Part shown: one piece after another, positions 19,060 through 56,709 of the stretch | Numbering within the stretch: position 1 is the stretch's first letter | Layout: each line of letters begins with the position of its first letter | NCBI GenBank assembly: GCA_018969355.1 | Contig: JAGWYO010000003.1 | Span: forward strand, 1 to 64,000 | Direction of reading: 5' to 3' | DNA: 64,000 nt | DNA from: Actinomycetales bacterium | GTDB taxonomy: Bacteria > Actinomycetota > Actinomycetes > Nanopelagicales > Nanopelagicaceae | Translations under genes and position numbers: made by a program | Notes under the pieces: generated by a model | The model's database searches: none | What the model was told of the DNA's origin: nothing | Seen by the model: the letters and a program-made list of their open reading frames with translations, nothing else

Positions 19060-19601
19060 TCTTTACTCACCCGCTCAATGAGATCTGAAAGTGAGGCAAC
19101 AGTAACTGCGCCAGATATGCGAGCAGCAACTCTGCCAGCCTTATCAATGAGAACTGTTGATGGGATGGCATTTGCTGGAAGTGATCCTTTGAAGCCTATT
19201 AATAGTAAATCATCAATAAGGGTTGGATATGGAAGTGAAAAACCTCTTTGGAAAGCTTCTGCAGTTGCAGGGTTATCACGCGTCAAAATTCCGATAAATG
19301 CAACATCACTATATTTATTGGCAAGCGCCACAAGAGTGGGAGCCTCTGCCCTACATGGAGAACACCATGATGCCCACACATTTACCACAGCGACCTTACC
19401 AACTGAATACGAGTAGTTAGTTCCAGACAAAGTCATTCCAGACAAAGCCGGTGCTTCAATTCTTTTCTCTGGCTTAATAAAAGTTACAGAACCATTACCA
19501 GAAACAAAAGATTCTTGGGAAGTAGAAGTTCCACCACCTCCGCATGAAGTCAGTGAAAGCGCAATCACCATAAGGACTACAGCCTTAATTCCTGATTTCA
19601 T
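19056..19601 (-). CDS. TlpA/ResA-like thioredoxin lipoprotein
   Basis: Extracytoplasmic thiol reductase that should accept electrons from CcdA and reduce the CXXCH cysteines of apocytochrome c. 181 residues. The lipobox LTSC is at about residue 20, followed by a Gly/Ser spacer, so the protein is probably membrane-anchored. The thioredoxin active site is WASWCSPCRAEAP (about residue 77), and NAIPSTVLIDKAG carries the cis-Pro loop. Overlaps ccdA by 4 bases and the phosphatase stop by 1 base. Confidence 0.93.
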   Translation of the reverse strand: MKSGIKAVVLMVIALSLTSCGGGGTSTSQESFVSGNGSVTFIKPEKRIEAPALSGMTLSGTNYSYSVGKVAVVNVWASWCSPCRAEAPTLVALANKYSDVAFIGILTRDNPATAEAFQRGFSLPYPTLIDDLLLIGFKGSLPANAIPSTVLIDKAGRVAARISGAVTVASLSDLIERVSKE

Positions 19602-20224
19602 TAATTCTTCTTTGGTAACAAATGGCGTGCTGGTTCAGAGTAAGTAAGACCTGAGATAAAACCTTCATCGTCAAAATGAATGCTAGTAACTGATGCCAAT
19701 GAACATTCACGACGGCGTGGATCGTGAAGCAATCTGCGATTCTCAATCGCACTTCTAAGAATCCAAATGGGTAATTGGTGAGAAATAGCTATTGCATCTT
19801 TACCATGAGCTGCATCTCGGGCAGCAAATACTGCAGCCAACATCCGGTTGATTTGATGATCGTAAGGCTCACCCCATGATGGTTTCCATGGATTCCACAA
19901 GTGACGCCATGAAGATGGATGCTTCAAAACGCCGTCTCCCACCCCAAAAGGTTTTCCTTCAAAGACATTTGCAGCTTCGATCAAGCGCTCATCTGTTGTA
20001 ATTGCAATGTTGTGCGCTGCAGCAATAGGTGCAGCAGTTTCTTGTGCTCGTTGCAGTGGAGAGACATGGAGTGCACCTAGATCTATGGTTCGAGACCAAT
20101 CACCCAATGTTTGTGCCATTTCTTGCCCGCGTGCAGAAAGAGCCCAGCCGGGTTGGCGGCCATAGAGAATCTTGTTGGGATTTTCTACTTCACCGTGGCG
20201 GACGACATGGACTGTTGAACTCAT
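19601..20224 (-). CDS. Histidine phosphatase family protein (phosphoglycerate mutase-like)
   Basis: About 207 residues from the ATG at 20224. VHVVRHGEVENP holds the phospho-accepting His near the N-terminus; SPLQRAQETA and AIAISHQLPIWILR supply the other active-site Arg and His. It heads the cytochrome c maturation operon, as in other actinobacteria, but its substrate is unknown. A longer frame to 20281 exists, but the 20224 start sits 6 bases after a TATGCT -10 hexamer and leaves space for the divergent HAD gene. Confidence 0.85.
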   Translation of the reverse strand: MSSTVHVVRHGEVENPNKILYGRQPGWALSARGQEMAQTLGDWSRTIDLGALHVSPLQRAQETAAPIAAAHNIAITTDERLIEAANVFEGKPFGVGDGVLKHPSSWRHLWNPWKPSWGEPYDHQINRMLAAVFAARDAAHGKDAIAISHQLPIWILRSAIENRRLLHDPRRRECSLASVTSIHFDDEGFISGLTYSEPARHLLPKKN

Positions 20225-20236
20225 TGGTAAAGCATA
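20225..20236 (-). promoter_or_regulatory. Leaderless-type promoter of the histidine phosphatase/ccs operon
   Basis: TATGCT (minus strand) at 20231-20236, 6 bases, then ATG at 20224. No SD is present. Confidence 0.6.
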
Positions 20237-20262
20237 AAGCGTCCCAATTGGCGCAAGTTCGT

Positions 20263-20274
20263 TAAGGTAGTGAC
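20263..20274 (+). promoter_or_regulatory. Leaderless-type promoter of the HAD phosphatase gene
   Basis: TAAGGT at 20263-20268, 6 bases (AGTGAC), then ATG at 20275. It is divergent from the ccs operon promoter 26 bases away. Confidence 0.6.
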
Positions 20275-21042
20275 ATGGCACTCACGGCGAAGCGAGCAGC
20301 CTTTTTTGATGTAGATAACACCCTCATTCGTGGCTCAACCCTCTACTTCCTGGGTAAGGGTATGTATCAGCGTGGTTATTTCACAAAAAAGGATATTTCG
20401 CGCTTCGTTTTGGCCAACCTTAGATTTCGTCTAACAGGTAAAGAAAATAGAGAAGAGATTCAACGCTTTCAAGATGCTGCCACGGATTTTATCGGCGGTC
20501 ATAGCGTTGAAGACATATTAAAGATTGCGCAAGAGATCTATGATCAATATGTATCACCTGCTCTATGGCAAGGAACAATTGATATCGCGCAAAAACATTT
20601 AGCTGCAGGTGAAGAAGTGTGGTTAGTGACTGCAGCACCTGAAGATATGGCAGTACTGATGGCAAAGAGGTTAGGTTTTACAGGAGCACTTGGCAGCAAA
20701 GCTGAAACTAAAGATGGTAAATACACAGGCAAAATGCTAGGTCTCTTATTACATGGAAAAGAAAAAGCAGTTGCTGTCCGTCAACTTGCCGAGCAAAAGG
20801 GTTTGATCCTAGAGAGTTGTTACTCCTATTCAGATAGTCATAATGATTTTCCATTATTGCAATGCGTGGGGTACCCATCAGCGATTAATCCAGATGCAAT
20901 CTTGTCGTTGCGTGCAATGGCAGAAGGGTGGCCAATCCATGATTTCCGCCGTGCCCGCCATTTAGCCAAGATTATCTCCCCTGTTGTTGTCAGAGTTGCT
21001 GCCCTGGGAACATGGTTGACCCCGCGCAAAAAACGAGGTTGA
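20275..21042 (+). CDS. HAD-IB family phosphatase
   Basis: 255 residues. HAD motif I is AAFFDVDNTLIRGS (nucleophile Asp and acid Asp, residues about 11-17), motif II is VWLVTAAPED, and motif IV is SYSDSHNDFPLL. A helical cap lies between motifs I and II (about residues 25-110). This is the SerB-related IB subfamily common in actinobacteria and often annotated beside morphology or lipid genes; phosphoserine or a phospholipid head group are possible substrates. The C-terminus is basic with a hydrophobic stretch (SPVVVRVAALGTWL). Confidence 0.85.
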   Translation: MALTAKRAAFFDVDNTLIRGSTLYFLGKGMYQRGYFTKKDISRFVLANLRFRLTGKENREEIQRFQDAATDFIGGHSVEDILKIAQEIYDQYVSPALWQGTIDIAQKHLAAGEEVWLVTAAPEDMAVLMAKRLGFTGALGSKAETKDGKYTGKMLGLLLHGKEKAVAVRQLAEQKGLILESCYSYSDSHNDFPLLQCVGYPSAINPDAILSLRAMAEGWPIHDFRRARHLAKIISPVVVRVAALGTWLTPRKKRG

Positions 21043-51938: not shown

Positions 51939-53114
51939 CTAAGGTGCCGCTGGAGCTGCTGAGATTTCTGTGGGAATGTTTGGCGCAGCGATTCTCCCAA
52001 GTAATCTGTCAATTGCAGCGCGTGCCTTGGCATTTGATTTAGTTCCTCTAGAAATTTCATCGGCTAAGGTGACGAAAATGTACTCACGATCTGTTGATTG
52101 CACATAGCCCGCTAAGGTCACTGTTCCATTTAATGTTCCAGTTTTGGCACGCACTAATCCGACTGCACTCGGTGCTGTAGTTAAAAATCGCGAACGTAAA
52201 GTTCCAGATACTCCTCCAATGGGAAGGCAATCATATAGAAGTGCATACTTTGGATCTTTACGGAGTTGATAGAGCAGTTGACCCATCATGCTGGCAGTTA
52301 TGCGATTTTCTTTTGACAGTCCACTTGCATCTTTAGTAACTAATTTGCTGGGATCAATGCCATGTTCCAGCAGTAGAGCAGCAAATATTTCAGACACACC
52401 TTTATCACTAAAAGAATTCCCAGCTGCTCGCGCTGACAATCGAGCCAATCGTTCGGCTAGATTATTTTCACTCCATAGCAGCGTGTAATTTAAGATTTCA
52501 GAGAGCAAGGGAGATTGATCTCCGACTATAAATTCATTTGCATTTAGTAATGCCTCATCACTTTTTACCTCTTTCATAATTGGCTTAAAACCACGCTTTG
52601 CCCAAAAAACTTTTAAGTTGGTGACGTCTTGAGAATACAAACCAGAGTATAAAACTGTGATTCCTTTTAGTGACCCTTGATTACTTTTTTTAACTGCGGT
52701 CAAAGAGTTAAAGGCCATATATGGTAAGGAAGCCCGACCCATCTTTCTGGCAACGGTGTGGTTCAAACTAATCCAAGGATCGTAACTACCCTGTATGACT
52801 ATAGTTCTTGGCTCTATGCCCGAAGATATATTCGTGGTAAAACGTGAATGCATATCTAAATATTTGATTGTGACTGCCCCAGAAAAAATCTTCATAATTG
52901 ACGCTGGTTTGCGCTGTGAATTTGAGTTCTTCTCATAAATTACTTCACCCGTAGTGCCATCAATCAAAATCATCGCAGGGTTTGAAAGAGATGGCTGATT
53001 TAAAAGTTCTTCAAAAGCGGCAGGAATAGAAGCTGCTGAGAGCACCGCACTCGCAGGTGCTGCAGTTAAAACTGTAGCGAGTGCAAGTAGAAATATGAAT
53101 CGGCGAGAGCGCAT
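51939..53114 (-). CDS. dacB: D-alanyl-D-alanine carboxypeptidase / endopeptidase (PBP4, S13)
   Basis: Trims and cleaves peptidoglycan peptides outside the membrane. 391 residues with a signal peptide (FIFLLALATVLTAAPASA). Active-site triad of the S13 family: SxxK in RKPASIMKIFSG (about residue 70), SxN as SENNLAERLA (about residue 235), KTG in VRAKTGTLNGTVTLAGYV. GTTGEVIYEKNSNSQRKP precedes the serine, as usual. 7 bases after the small membrane protein gene. Confidence 0.94.
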   Translation of the reverse strand: MRSRRFIFLLALATVLTAAPASAVLSAASIPAAFEELLNQPSLSNPAMILIDGTTGEVIYEKNSNSQRKPASIMKIFSGAVTIKYLDMHSRFTTNISSGIEPRTIVIQGSYDPWISLNHTVARKMGRASLPYMAFNSLTAVKKSNQGSLKGITVLYSGLYSQDVTNLKVFWAKRGFKPIMKEVKSDEALLNANEFIVGDQSPLLSEILNYTLLWSENNLAERLARLSARAAGNSFSDKGVSEIFAALLLEHGIDPSKLVTKDASGLSKENRITASMMGQLLYQLRKDPKYALLYDCLPIGGVSGTLRSRFLTTAPSAVGLVRAKTGTLNGTVTLAGYVQSTDREYIFVTLADEISRGTKSNAKARAAIDRLLGRIAAPNIPTEISAAPAAP

Positions 53115-53121
53115 CTACCTG

Positions 53122-53472
53122 TCAGTGCCAGAGTGAAGCTATGAGTATGTTCGTAGTTGTCAAACCAATGAGAAGTAACCACGTGTTTTGAGCCAATACC
53201 GGCTTCTTCATATTCTTATAACCGAGAACAAGGATAGTGATGAGAATCAAAAGCTTGATTCCTACTTTTGTGTGATTAAGAACTTCATCTGGGTGCACAG
53301 TGCCCCACATGCCCACCATTGCAAGGCCTGCAATAAGTGCTGTTAGGCCCGCGTGGACGATCCCTGGGTTAAATTTACGAGGGTTTCTATTCCATTGGTG
53401 TAGCAACAAAGAAAGCATTGCAATCACGCAAAGAATATGGACTATATAGAGGACTGTATTGATAGCTGACAT
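53122..53472 (-). CDS. Small four-helix membrane protein of unknown function
   Basis: 116 residues, four hydrophobic helices (about 6-24, 37-57, 70-87, 94-113). His residues lie at the helix edges (positions 12, 25, 40, 60, 67 and 116), which would allow heme or metal binding, but no family is recognised. It is co-directional with dacB 7 bases away and has a leaderless promoter overlapping that of the RNA methylase gene on the other strand. Confidence 0.7.
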   Translation of the reverse strand: MSAINTVLYIVHILCVIAMLSLLLHQWNRNPRKFNPGIVHAGLTALIAGLAMVGMWGTVHPDEVLNHTKVGIKLLILITILVLGYKNMKKPVLAQNTWLLLIGLTTTNILIASLWH

Positions 53473-53494
53473 GTATTCAGTTTAGAGTGCCTAC
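53473..53494. promoter_or_regulatory. Back-to-back overlapping leaderless promoters in a 22-base gap
   Basis: Plus strand TAGAGT at 53483-53488 is 6 bases before the ATG at 53495; minus strand TAAACT at 53479-53484 is 6 bases before the ATG at 53472. The two hexamers share 53483-53484. Neither gene has an SD. Confidence 0.65.
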
Positions 53495-54142
53495 ATGTCT
53501 AATCCAACTACCCCAGCCTCAATTGGCCCGGGTGAATTTTTCCCAGTAGTCGGTGTTGGGCCTCATGAAAAACCATGGCCAGATGGGCCTCACTATGATC
53601 CAGAGCTATTACTCAACGGGGATCGTAGAAATGTTTTAGATGGCTATAGATATTGGACCGTAGAAGCAATCGTCGCCGATCTTGATTCAAAGCGGCACAA
53701 ACTACAGATTGCTATTGAAAATTGGCAACATGATTTAAATATTGGCTCAATTGTTCGAACAGCTAATGCCTTCAACGTCTCCGGAGTTCACATCATTGGC
53801 AAACGTGATTGGAATAAGCGCGGTGCGATGGTGACAGATAGGTACTTAACCGTCCATCATCATCCAACGATTGAAGATTTTGCACACTGGTGCAAAGAAA
53901 ATGACCTACCAATTATTGGAATAGATAACGTTCCTGGATCTAAGCAGTTGGAATCTGCGCAATTACCTGAGAAATGTGTGCTCCTTTTTGGCCAAGAAGG
54001 TGCAGGAATGTCAGATGAAGGAATTGCAGTGTGTGAAACGCTCTATGAAATCAATCAATATGGTTCAACTAGATCTATGAATGCATCTGCTGCAGGGGCA
54101 ATTGCTATGTATCACTGGGCATTGCAGCACTTACGGCAATGA
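53495..54142 (+). CDS. SpoU/TrmH family RNA methyltransferase
   Basis: SAM-dependent 2'-O-methyltransferase of tRNA or rRNA with a SPOUT knot. 215 residues. NWQHDLNIGSIVRTANAF (motif 1, with Asn/Arg), VLLFGQEGAGMSDEGI (motif 2), and IPQYGSTRSMNASAAGAIAMY-like motif 3 (seen as INQYGSTRSMNASAAGAI) are all present. The N-terminal about 65 residues precede the fold. The substrate RNA is not predictable. It overlaps the MFS gene by 4 bases. Confidence 0.92.
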   Translation: MSNPTTPASIGPGEFFPVVGVGPHEKPWPDGPHYDPELLLNGDRRNVLDGYRYWTVEAIVADLDSKRHKLQIAIENWQHDLNIGSIVRTANAFNVSGVHIIGKRDWNKRGAMVTDRYLTVHHHPTIEDFAHWCKENDLPIIGIDNVPGSKQLESAQLPEKCVLLFGQEGAGMSDEGIAVCETLYEINQYGSTRSMNASAAGAIAMYHWALQHLRQ

Positions 54143-55305: not shown

Positions 55306-55774
55306 CGAGGGTCTCTTCATAGACTTCACTGGATTGGTTATATGGATCTGGGACCTCTAATGCAAAGAATTGTGCTGAAGCAGGATCAATGTGCGATAAG
55401 GCTGGATCAAAGGAGCGTAAATAGCAAACTTTGCCCCGAGAATCATTATCTGGCGCAAGTTCTATTACCTTTCTAAAATTCTGTGAATCCATGACTAGAA
55501 TTAAATCTGCTTCAAAGAAATCATTGGACTTAAAATCGCGCGCGGAGTGAGAGTACTTGTATCCAGCTTTTTCCCAGGTTTTCTGGGAAGTTGGGTGTGC
55601 ACCTTGACCAATATGCCACGCACTTGTTCCAGAGCTATCAACAATAATCTTGGGTTTAATCCAATTAGCGGCGCGATTAGATAAAACAGCTGCGGCCATT
55701 GGTGAGCGACAGATATTTCCCAAACAAACCATCGTTATACGGATCTGGGGCAGGGACTTTAGATGCTCAATCAA
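55253..55774 (-). CDS. Low-molecular-weight protein-tyrosine phosphatase
   Basis: 173 residues. The CX5R(S) phosphate loop is VCLGNICRSP (about residue 17); the general-acid Asp is in VPDPYNQS (about residue 135). The start is TTG at 55774 overlapping the TPR stop (TTGA); the internal Met 15 would leave only one residue before the phosphate loop. May regulate capsule or signalling tyrosine kinases, though none is in the window. Confidence 0.9.
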   Translation of the reverse strand: MIEHLKSLPQIRITMVCLGNICRSPMAAAVLSNRAANWIKPKIIVDSSGTSAWHIGQGAHPTSQKTWEKAGYKYSHSARDFKSNDFFEADLILVMDSQNFRKVIELAPDNDSRGKVCYLRSFDPALSHIDPASAQFFALEVPDPYNQSSEVYEETLVMIERAVDGLLQELSHP

Positions 55775-56709
55775 ACCTGCGGCTCTTCATCTAGCGTCTC
55801 CTGCACTGATTTCAGGCGACGTTCAATCTCATCGGCCTCATCAGTACGGCCCTGCATGCGAATAATCTTTGCAATTCTTGTCTCAACATCGACGATAAAT
55901 TCGAAGTCTTTAGGTTCGTCTTCGCTCACCACTGAGAGCACTTGCTCCAAAGTGGCTAATGCTTCATCGAATTTCTCGAGCAGAATCTGAGCCTTGCCGA
56001 ATTCAAATTGAGCGAAAGTTTCACGACGATGATCATGGCCTGTCTCAAAGACATCAACTGCTTTGCGGGCAGTTTCAAGGGCTAATTCGCCCTCACCTAA
56101 TTCAATTAAGCAAGATGCGATTTTTTGATCACAGCGAGCAACATGAATGACTTCCTTGTTTCGCTTAAATAGTGCGCGGGCCTCTTTAAATGCGTCAATA
56201 GATTTTTCATAGTTTTTGAGTTCACGTTCTGCGCAGCCTATGAGATGTAGATCATTTGCAGCACCAATTTCATTTCCATCTACTAAATGTTCTTGAGCGC
56301 ACTCATTCATTGTTGCAACAACTTTGTCATACTGCTTTGAGGTGTACCACCACTCACCTAAGGTGCAAGCAAGTTCTAGTGCAATCGGTGATTTGTTCTC
56401 GCGTAAAATTTCGACTGCTTTGCTCATTGCAGATGCAGCTTCATCCATACGCTTTAACTGATTTAAGTTATAACCGATTGCAGAGTACGCCTGAGCTAAT
56501 CCTTCACTTGGTGCGCTGTCTCCAAGTGTTGAGTAAATATCGCGTGCAGTTTCAGCAAGCGCCAATGCTTCGTCGTATTGCCCACGTGCATAAATTCGCG
56601 CACTTAATTCATAGTATGTACTAGCACGTTCTTCGCCATCTACGTCAGGGATCCGATCCCACAACATTTCCTCGGTGATGAGCTCTTCCATGTCGTCATC
56701 TTCACTCAC
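55771..56709 (-). CDS. TPR-repeat protein
   Basis: 312 residues. Helical repeats such as ARIYARGQYDEALALAETA, AIGYNLNQLKRMDEAASAM, EWWYTSKQYDKVVATM, GCAERELKNYEKSIDAFKEA and GKAQILLEKFDEALATLEQ are spaced by about 35-40 residues, so about seven TPR units. Cytoplasmic, very acidic N-terminus. GTG start at 56709. Scaffold role presumed; partners unknown. It shares an operon with the phosphatase. Confidence 0.85.
   Translation of the reverse strand: MSEDDDMEELITEEMLWDRIPDVDGEERASTYYELSARIYARGQYDEALALAETARDIYSTLGDSAPSEGLAQAYSAIGYNLNQLKRMDEAASAMSKAVEILRENKSPIALELACTLGEWWYTSKQYDKVVATMNECAQEHLVDGNEIGAANDLHLIGCAERELKNYEKSIDAFKEARALFKRNKEVIHVARCDQKIASCLIELGEGELALETARKAVDVFETGHDHRRETFAQFEFGKAQILLEKFDEALATLEQVLSVVSEDEPKDFEFIVDVETRIAKIIRMQGRTDEADEIERRLKSVQETLDEEPQV

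Follow-up and report, generated by a model that had tools for sequence, protein, structure and literature searches.

How can two divergent genes both be transcribed when only 22 bases separate their start codons? The question is raised by a gene pair of a freshwater actinobacterium, in which a SpoU methylase gene and a small membrane protein gene diverge from positions 53473-53494 of the window (the whole 64,000-nucleotide stretch of DNA analysed here). The gap, read directly, is GTATTCAGTTTAGAGTGCCTAC. The original prediction placed two overlapping -10 hexamers within it, sharing two bases, and direct reading of the sequence bears this out: TAAACT on the minus strand and TAGAGT on the plus strand have the TA at 53483-53484 in common (Table 1). 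The gap is very probably a single bidirectional sigma-70-type promoter, from which both transcripts are predicted to be leaderless. One -10 element per strand would lie within ANNNTANNNT, with the central TA common to both. RNA polymerase would engage this core in either orientation and start at the A of the flanking ATG, giving a rightward leaderless mRNA for the SpoU methylase and a leftward one for the small membrane protein, probably together with the carboxypeptidase. Only one polymerase would occupy the core at a time, which is probably of little consequence at ordinary activity. Since both transcripts are predicted to be leaderless, the gap would consist only of the promoter core and two 6-base spacers. 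We infer the start sites, the activity in both directions and the steric exclusion alike.

Table 1. Genes and predicted promoter features around the intergenic gap
Feature	Position	Strand	Remarks
SpoU/TrmH-type RNA 2'-O-methyltransferase gene	53495..54142	+	215 aa; Pfam PF00588, 1.9e-29
Small membrane protein gene	53122..53472	-	116 aa; orthologs at the corresponding place in relatives
D-Ala-D-Ala carboxypeptidase (S13) gene	51939..53114	-	7 bp downstream of the small gene; adjacent in relatives
-10 element TAGAGT, SpoU methylase promoter	53483..53488	+	Predicted; followed by GCCTAC (6 bases) and ATG 53495
-10 element TAAACT, small-membrane-protein promoter	53479..53484	-	Predicted; followed by GAATAC (6 bases) and ATG 53472
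10-bp bidirectional core AGTTTAGAGT (generic form ANNNTANNNT)	53479..53488	both	Predicted
Transcription start, A of ATG (leaderless)	53495	+	Predicted from spacing
Transcription start, A of ATG (leaderless)	53472	-	Predicted from spacing
-35-like TTGATA	53459..53464	+	18-bp spacer to TAGAGT; within the minus ORF; good candidate
-35-like TTGGAT	53502..53507	-	17-bp spacer to TAAACT; within the SpoU ORF; weak candidate, 3/6 to consensus

Symmetry-driven bidirectional promoters were reportedly first described in a paper of 2021. In the bacterial examples described, start sites flank a shared -10 element, commonly at distances of 10, 18 or 23 bp (PMC12825309, PMC10268837). In our gap the opposite-strand -10 elements share the TA of AGTTTAGAGT, and 23 bp separate the plus and minus start sites if these coincide with the ATGs; the best reading of the gap is therefore a bidirectional promoter belonging to the 23-bp class. 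The likeness to the promoters of Warman and Grainger (PMC12825309, PMC10268837) lies in opposite-strand starts, here predicted ones, that flank a shared -10 element between divergent genes. Unlike in those promoters, both transcripts are predicted to be leaderless. The locus thus appears to be a clean example of a promoter kind already known from other bacteria. No leaderless bidirectional promoter in this group was found in the literature searched, which included few subscription papers, and we do not claim that such promoters are undescribed.

Of the two flanking proteins, the SpoU protein has TrmH and RlmB as its best NCBIfam matches, both below threshold, and a Pfam search with the 116-aa minus-strand protein gave no family match.

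Leaderless promoters of Actinobacteria (for example, in Mycobacterium tuberculosis) carry TANNNT 6-7 bases before an ATG or GTG and have a weak -35 requirement or none. They are usually described in one direction, whereas at this locus two predicted ones overlap, each with its hexamer 6 bases before a start codon. We took a census of such spacings in 800 kb, sampled in stretches, of the close complete relative G103 (SpoU 96% identical), in which a simple dicodon model, using no promoter information, called 773 genes. TANNNT stood upstream of the start at a spacer of 6 in 92 genes and at a spacer of 7 in 52, over a background of about 7 genes (mostly 4-12) at each other nearby offset. The signal of predicted leaderless transcription is thus strong across the genome of this relative, with TANNNT enriched 6-7 bases before the start codon. 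Both hexamers of the locus lie at 6, the modal leaderless spacing genome-wide, which supports the leaderless reading of the original prediction. In the composite of these 144 predicted leaderless promoters from G103, no base stands out strongly ahead of the hexamer, and the -35 position has only a weak T preference.

There is no space for a -35 element in the gap and, as had been foreseen, both -35 positions fall within the opposite coding sequences, where candidates indeed sit (Table 1). In an alignment of 26 nonredundant relatives, whose loci had been picked by presence of the motif, the TTGAT columns of the plus candidate are 85-100% conserved versus mostly 40-75% for neighbouring columns; the same bases also encode Ile-Asn codons of the minus ORF. 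Conservation of the minus candidate, TTGGAT, is confounded with SpoU coding. A block like TAGCGTTT/TAGCCTTTC is conserved about 15-25 bases upstream of the core, at the plus -35 position, in the clades in which the small gene has a leader (L015, L024-L026, L030, L036, L039-L042 and L102-L110); in its alignment, T is found at -19 in 100% and at -13 in 96%.

The two-way geometry recurs well beyond this gene pair. The 800 kb of G103 contain 95 divergent pairs, and in 17 of them each start has a TANNNT at a distance of 6-8 bases. The hexamers of four of these pairs are offset by -1 (gap 18) and those of another four by +4 (gaps 22, 22, 23 and 24), the remainder being scattered. This clustering at 8 of 17 has a binomial probability of 1e-7, assuming uniform offsets over 50, and that at 8 of the 11 close-range pairs one of 1e-5. 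TANNNT and its reverse complement share fixed bases at -1 and +4, so that the two directions together need four fixed bases rather than six. In 101 genomes of the genus, CAT-N6-ANNNTANNNT-N6-ATG occurs 244 times versus 24 for the reversed-pattern control, a total that overstates independence because many sites are orthologs of one another, as do the genus counts that follow. The off-register version gave 45 and 36 (one per orientation) versus controls of 22 and 24, and the 18-base class gave 88 and 86 versus 45 and 58. By reading, at least ten distinct cores are present among the matches listed for the 22-base geometry, and two-way cores elsewhere in the genus can be of quite different sequence (for example, ATTGTATGGT, AGTCTAGTCT and AGGATACCCT). 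Three 22-base and four 18-base sites occur in the genome to which the window belongs. The arrangement is not a one-off, with several predicted loci per genome here. Phylum-wide, outside the genus, the excess of the 22-base class is weak (9 sites versus 3 for the control in 16 genomes, as counted from tabulated results). Sites with two-way leaderless geometry in the window's genome include G000:C12:19246-19273, G000:C11:14751-14778, G000:C12:23621, C13:52714, C13:63427 and C82:34663 (22- and 18-base classes). At 19601-20275 of the window, another divergent pair has TANNNT at leaderless spacing before each start, but its gap is 50 bases long and the two promoters in it are separate.

At the locus itself, AGTTTAGAGT is unchanged in 30 of 30 orthologous gaps with CAT-22-ATG geometry, the other gap columns varying apart from the flanking C and G. 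These orthologs were picked by geometry alone and not by the motif; an artefact of motif-based locus choice was thereby rejected, as the re-selection still gave 30/30. Among the 69 orthologs with a protein identity of 82% or above, 62 have the core upstream of SpoU; among the 37 below 82%, one does. A comparable one-way leaderless promoter in the window, followed across the genus, keeps its T, A and T while the NNN and upstream bases change freely (TAGGCT, TAGGGT, TAACCT, TAGAGT and TACTCT). A second one-way control keeps a stretch longer than the hexamer, GCGTATAGAGTC, and long conserved cores are thus not unique to two-way sites. The idea that all leaderless promoters are equally conserved was discarded, one control promoter being not conserved and the other partly so. 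Because the second one-way promoter also keeps a longer core, conservation alone is not decisive; it fits double use of the putative core without proving it. Moreover, the invariant NNN positions exceed the strict needs of two TANNNT elements, which counts against our preferred explanation.

This surplus is what an alternative would account for, in which the SpoU promoter alone is real, the AGTT upstream of TAGAGT is conserved as its extended -10 or as the site of an unknown regulator, and the minus-strand TAAACT is incidental. Consistent with it, conservation of AGTTTAGAGTGC goes past what two TANNNT elements minimally need and takes in the GC on the plus side; an extended core is likewise conserved at another one-way promoter; and the exact 12-mer is found once in the genome. 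Yet the distance of TAAACT from the minus ATG is exactly 6 bases, which is the leaderless optimum genome-wide; the loci of quite different sequence elsewhere in the genus obey the same two-way geometry; and in the leaderless-promoter composite AGTT is not preferred ahead of the hexamer. We regard this alternative as unlikely. A reading of the core as a dispersed regulator site was rejected, the genome containing no second exact copy of the 12-mer; one-mismatch copies number two, versus nine for the reversed control.

The predicted bidirectional promoter can also be followed through relatives in which the small gene has moved or vanished. In a second group of relatives the distance between the start of the small gene and SpoU is about 40-85 bp, with TAAACT still in place; these moved genes carry leaders of about 20-60 nt, several with AAGGAG-type ribosome sites. 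Retention of this putative element there is a stronger point than the invariance of the core. Other relatives have lost the small gene with the core intact (L084, L010, L012, L086 and L090), and the carboxypeptidase gene then lies close behind the core (for example, in L084, L010 and L012). It appears that translation at this locus has changed naturally between the leaderless and the leadered mode while the predicted promoter stayed where it was. On the minus strand of L084 (G067), the small gene has shrunk to a 16-codon frame from the corresponding leaderless ATG, and the carboxypeptidase ATG comes immediately after the TAG stop of this frame, as if the frame had been retained as a leader for the carboxypeptidase.

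The original prediction went further and proposed a built-in mutual exclusion between the two directions. As a physical effect this is reasonable, because simultaneous binding of opposing polymerases is impossible at bidirectional promoters of this sort (PMC12825309), and it would be expected of overlapping -10 elements. A regulatory role for it is hypothetical and not the default expectation, because basal activity was too low for polymerase competition at all five E. coli bidirectional promoters tested, where competition emerged once one direction was strongly activated (PMC12825309). An alternative in which the shared core is a switch, with mutual exclusion as its function and the expression of the two genes anticorrelated, would build on the fact that, of two -10 elements that overlap, only one can be occupied at a time, a principle also found in that study. 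Against it stand the low basal activity, the persistence of the core in relatives that have lost the small gene, and the lack of any evident functional opposition between the SpoU methylase and small membrane protein genes; we consider such a switch improbable. That two unrelated TANNNT matches met by chance in a short AT-containing gap is next to impossible: single matches are common with three fixed bases (about 7 in 773 per offset), but chance is contradicted by the geometry excess (244 versus 24), the 30/30 invariance and the sharp leaderless peak.

For the bidirectional promoter, these comparisons raise a broader reading, to which we give about even weight: that in this streamlined genus divergent pairs repeatedly collapse to fixed promoter-only gaps (about 18 or 22-24 bases), forming a conserved class in which the full core is selected. 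The gap lengths would be fixed because there are only two offsets at which TANNNT and its reverse complement have fixed bases in common. If this holds, doubly leaderless two-way promoters could be recognized from sequence alone, and the full core, including its 'free' positions, would be under selection in both directions. The locus illustrates how compact a divergent promoter may be, with two genes, no predicted leaders and nothing but the predicted promoter in the 22 bases between them. As start codons would mark the start sites, bidirectional promoters could be studied by genome comparison in organisms without transcript maps. A further shift from leaderless to leadered translation is possible at the gene at 55771-56709 (minus strand) of the window: the GCGTATAGAGTC stretch upstream of it is kept even in cases of a longer leader that contains a sequence resembling a ribosome site (relatives L182-L211).
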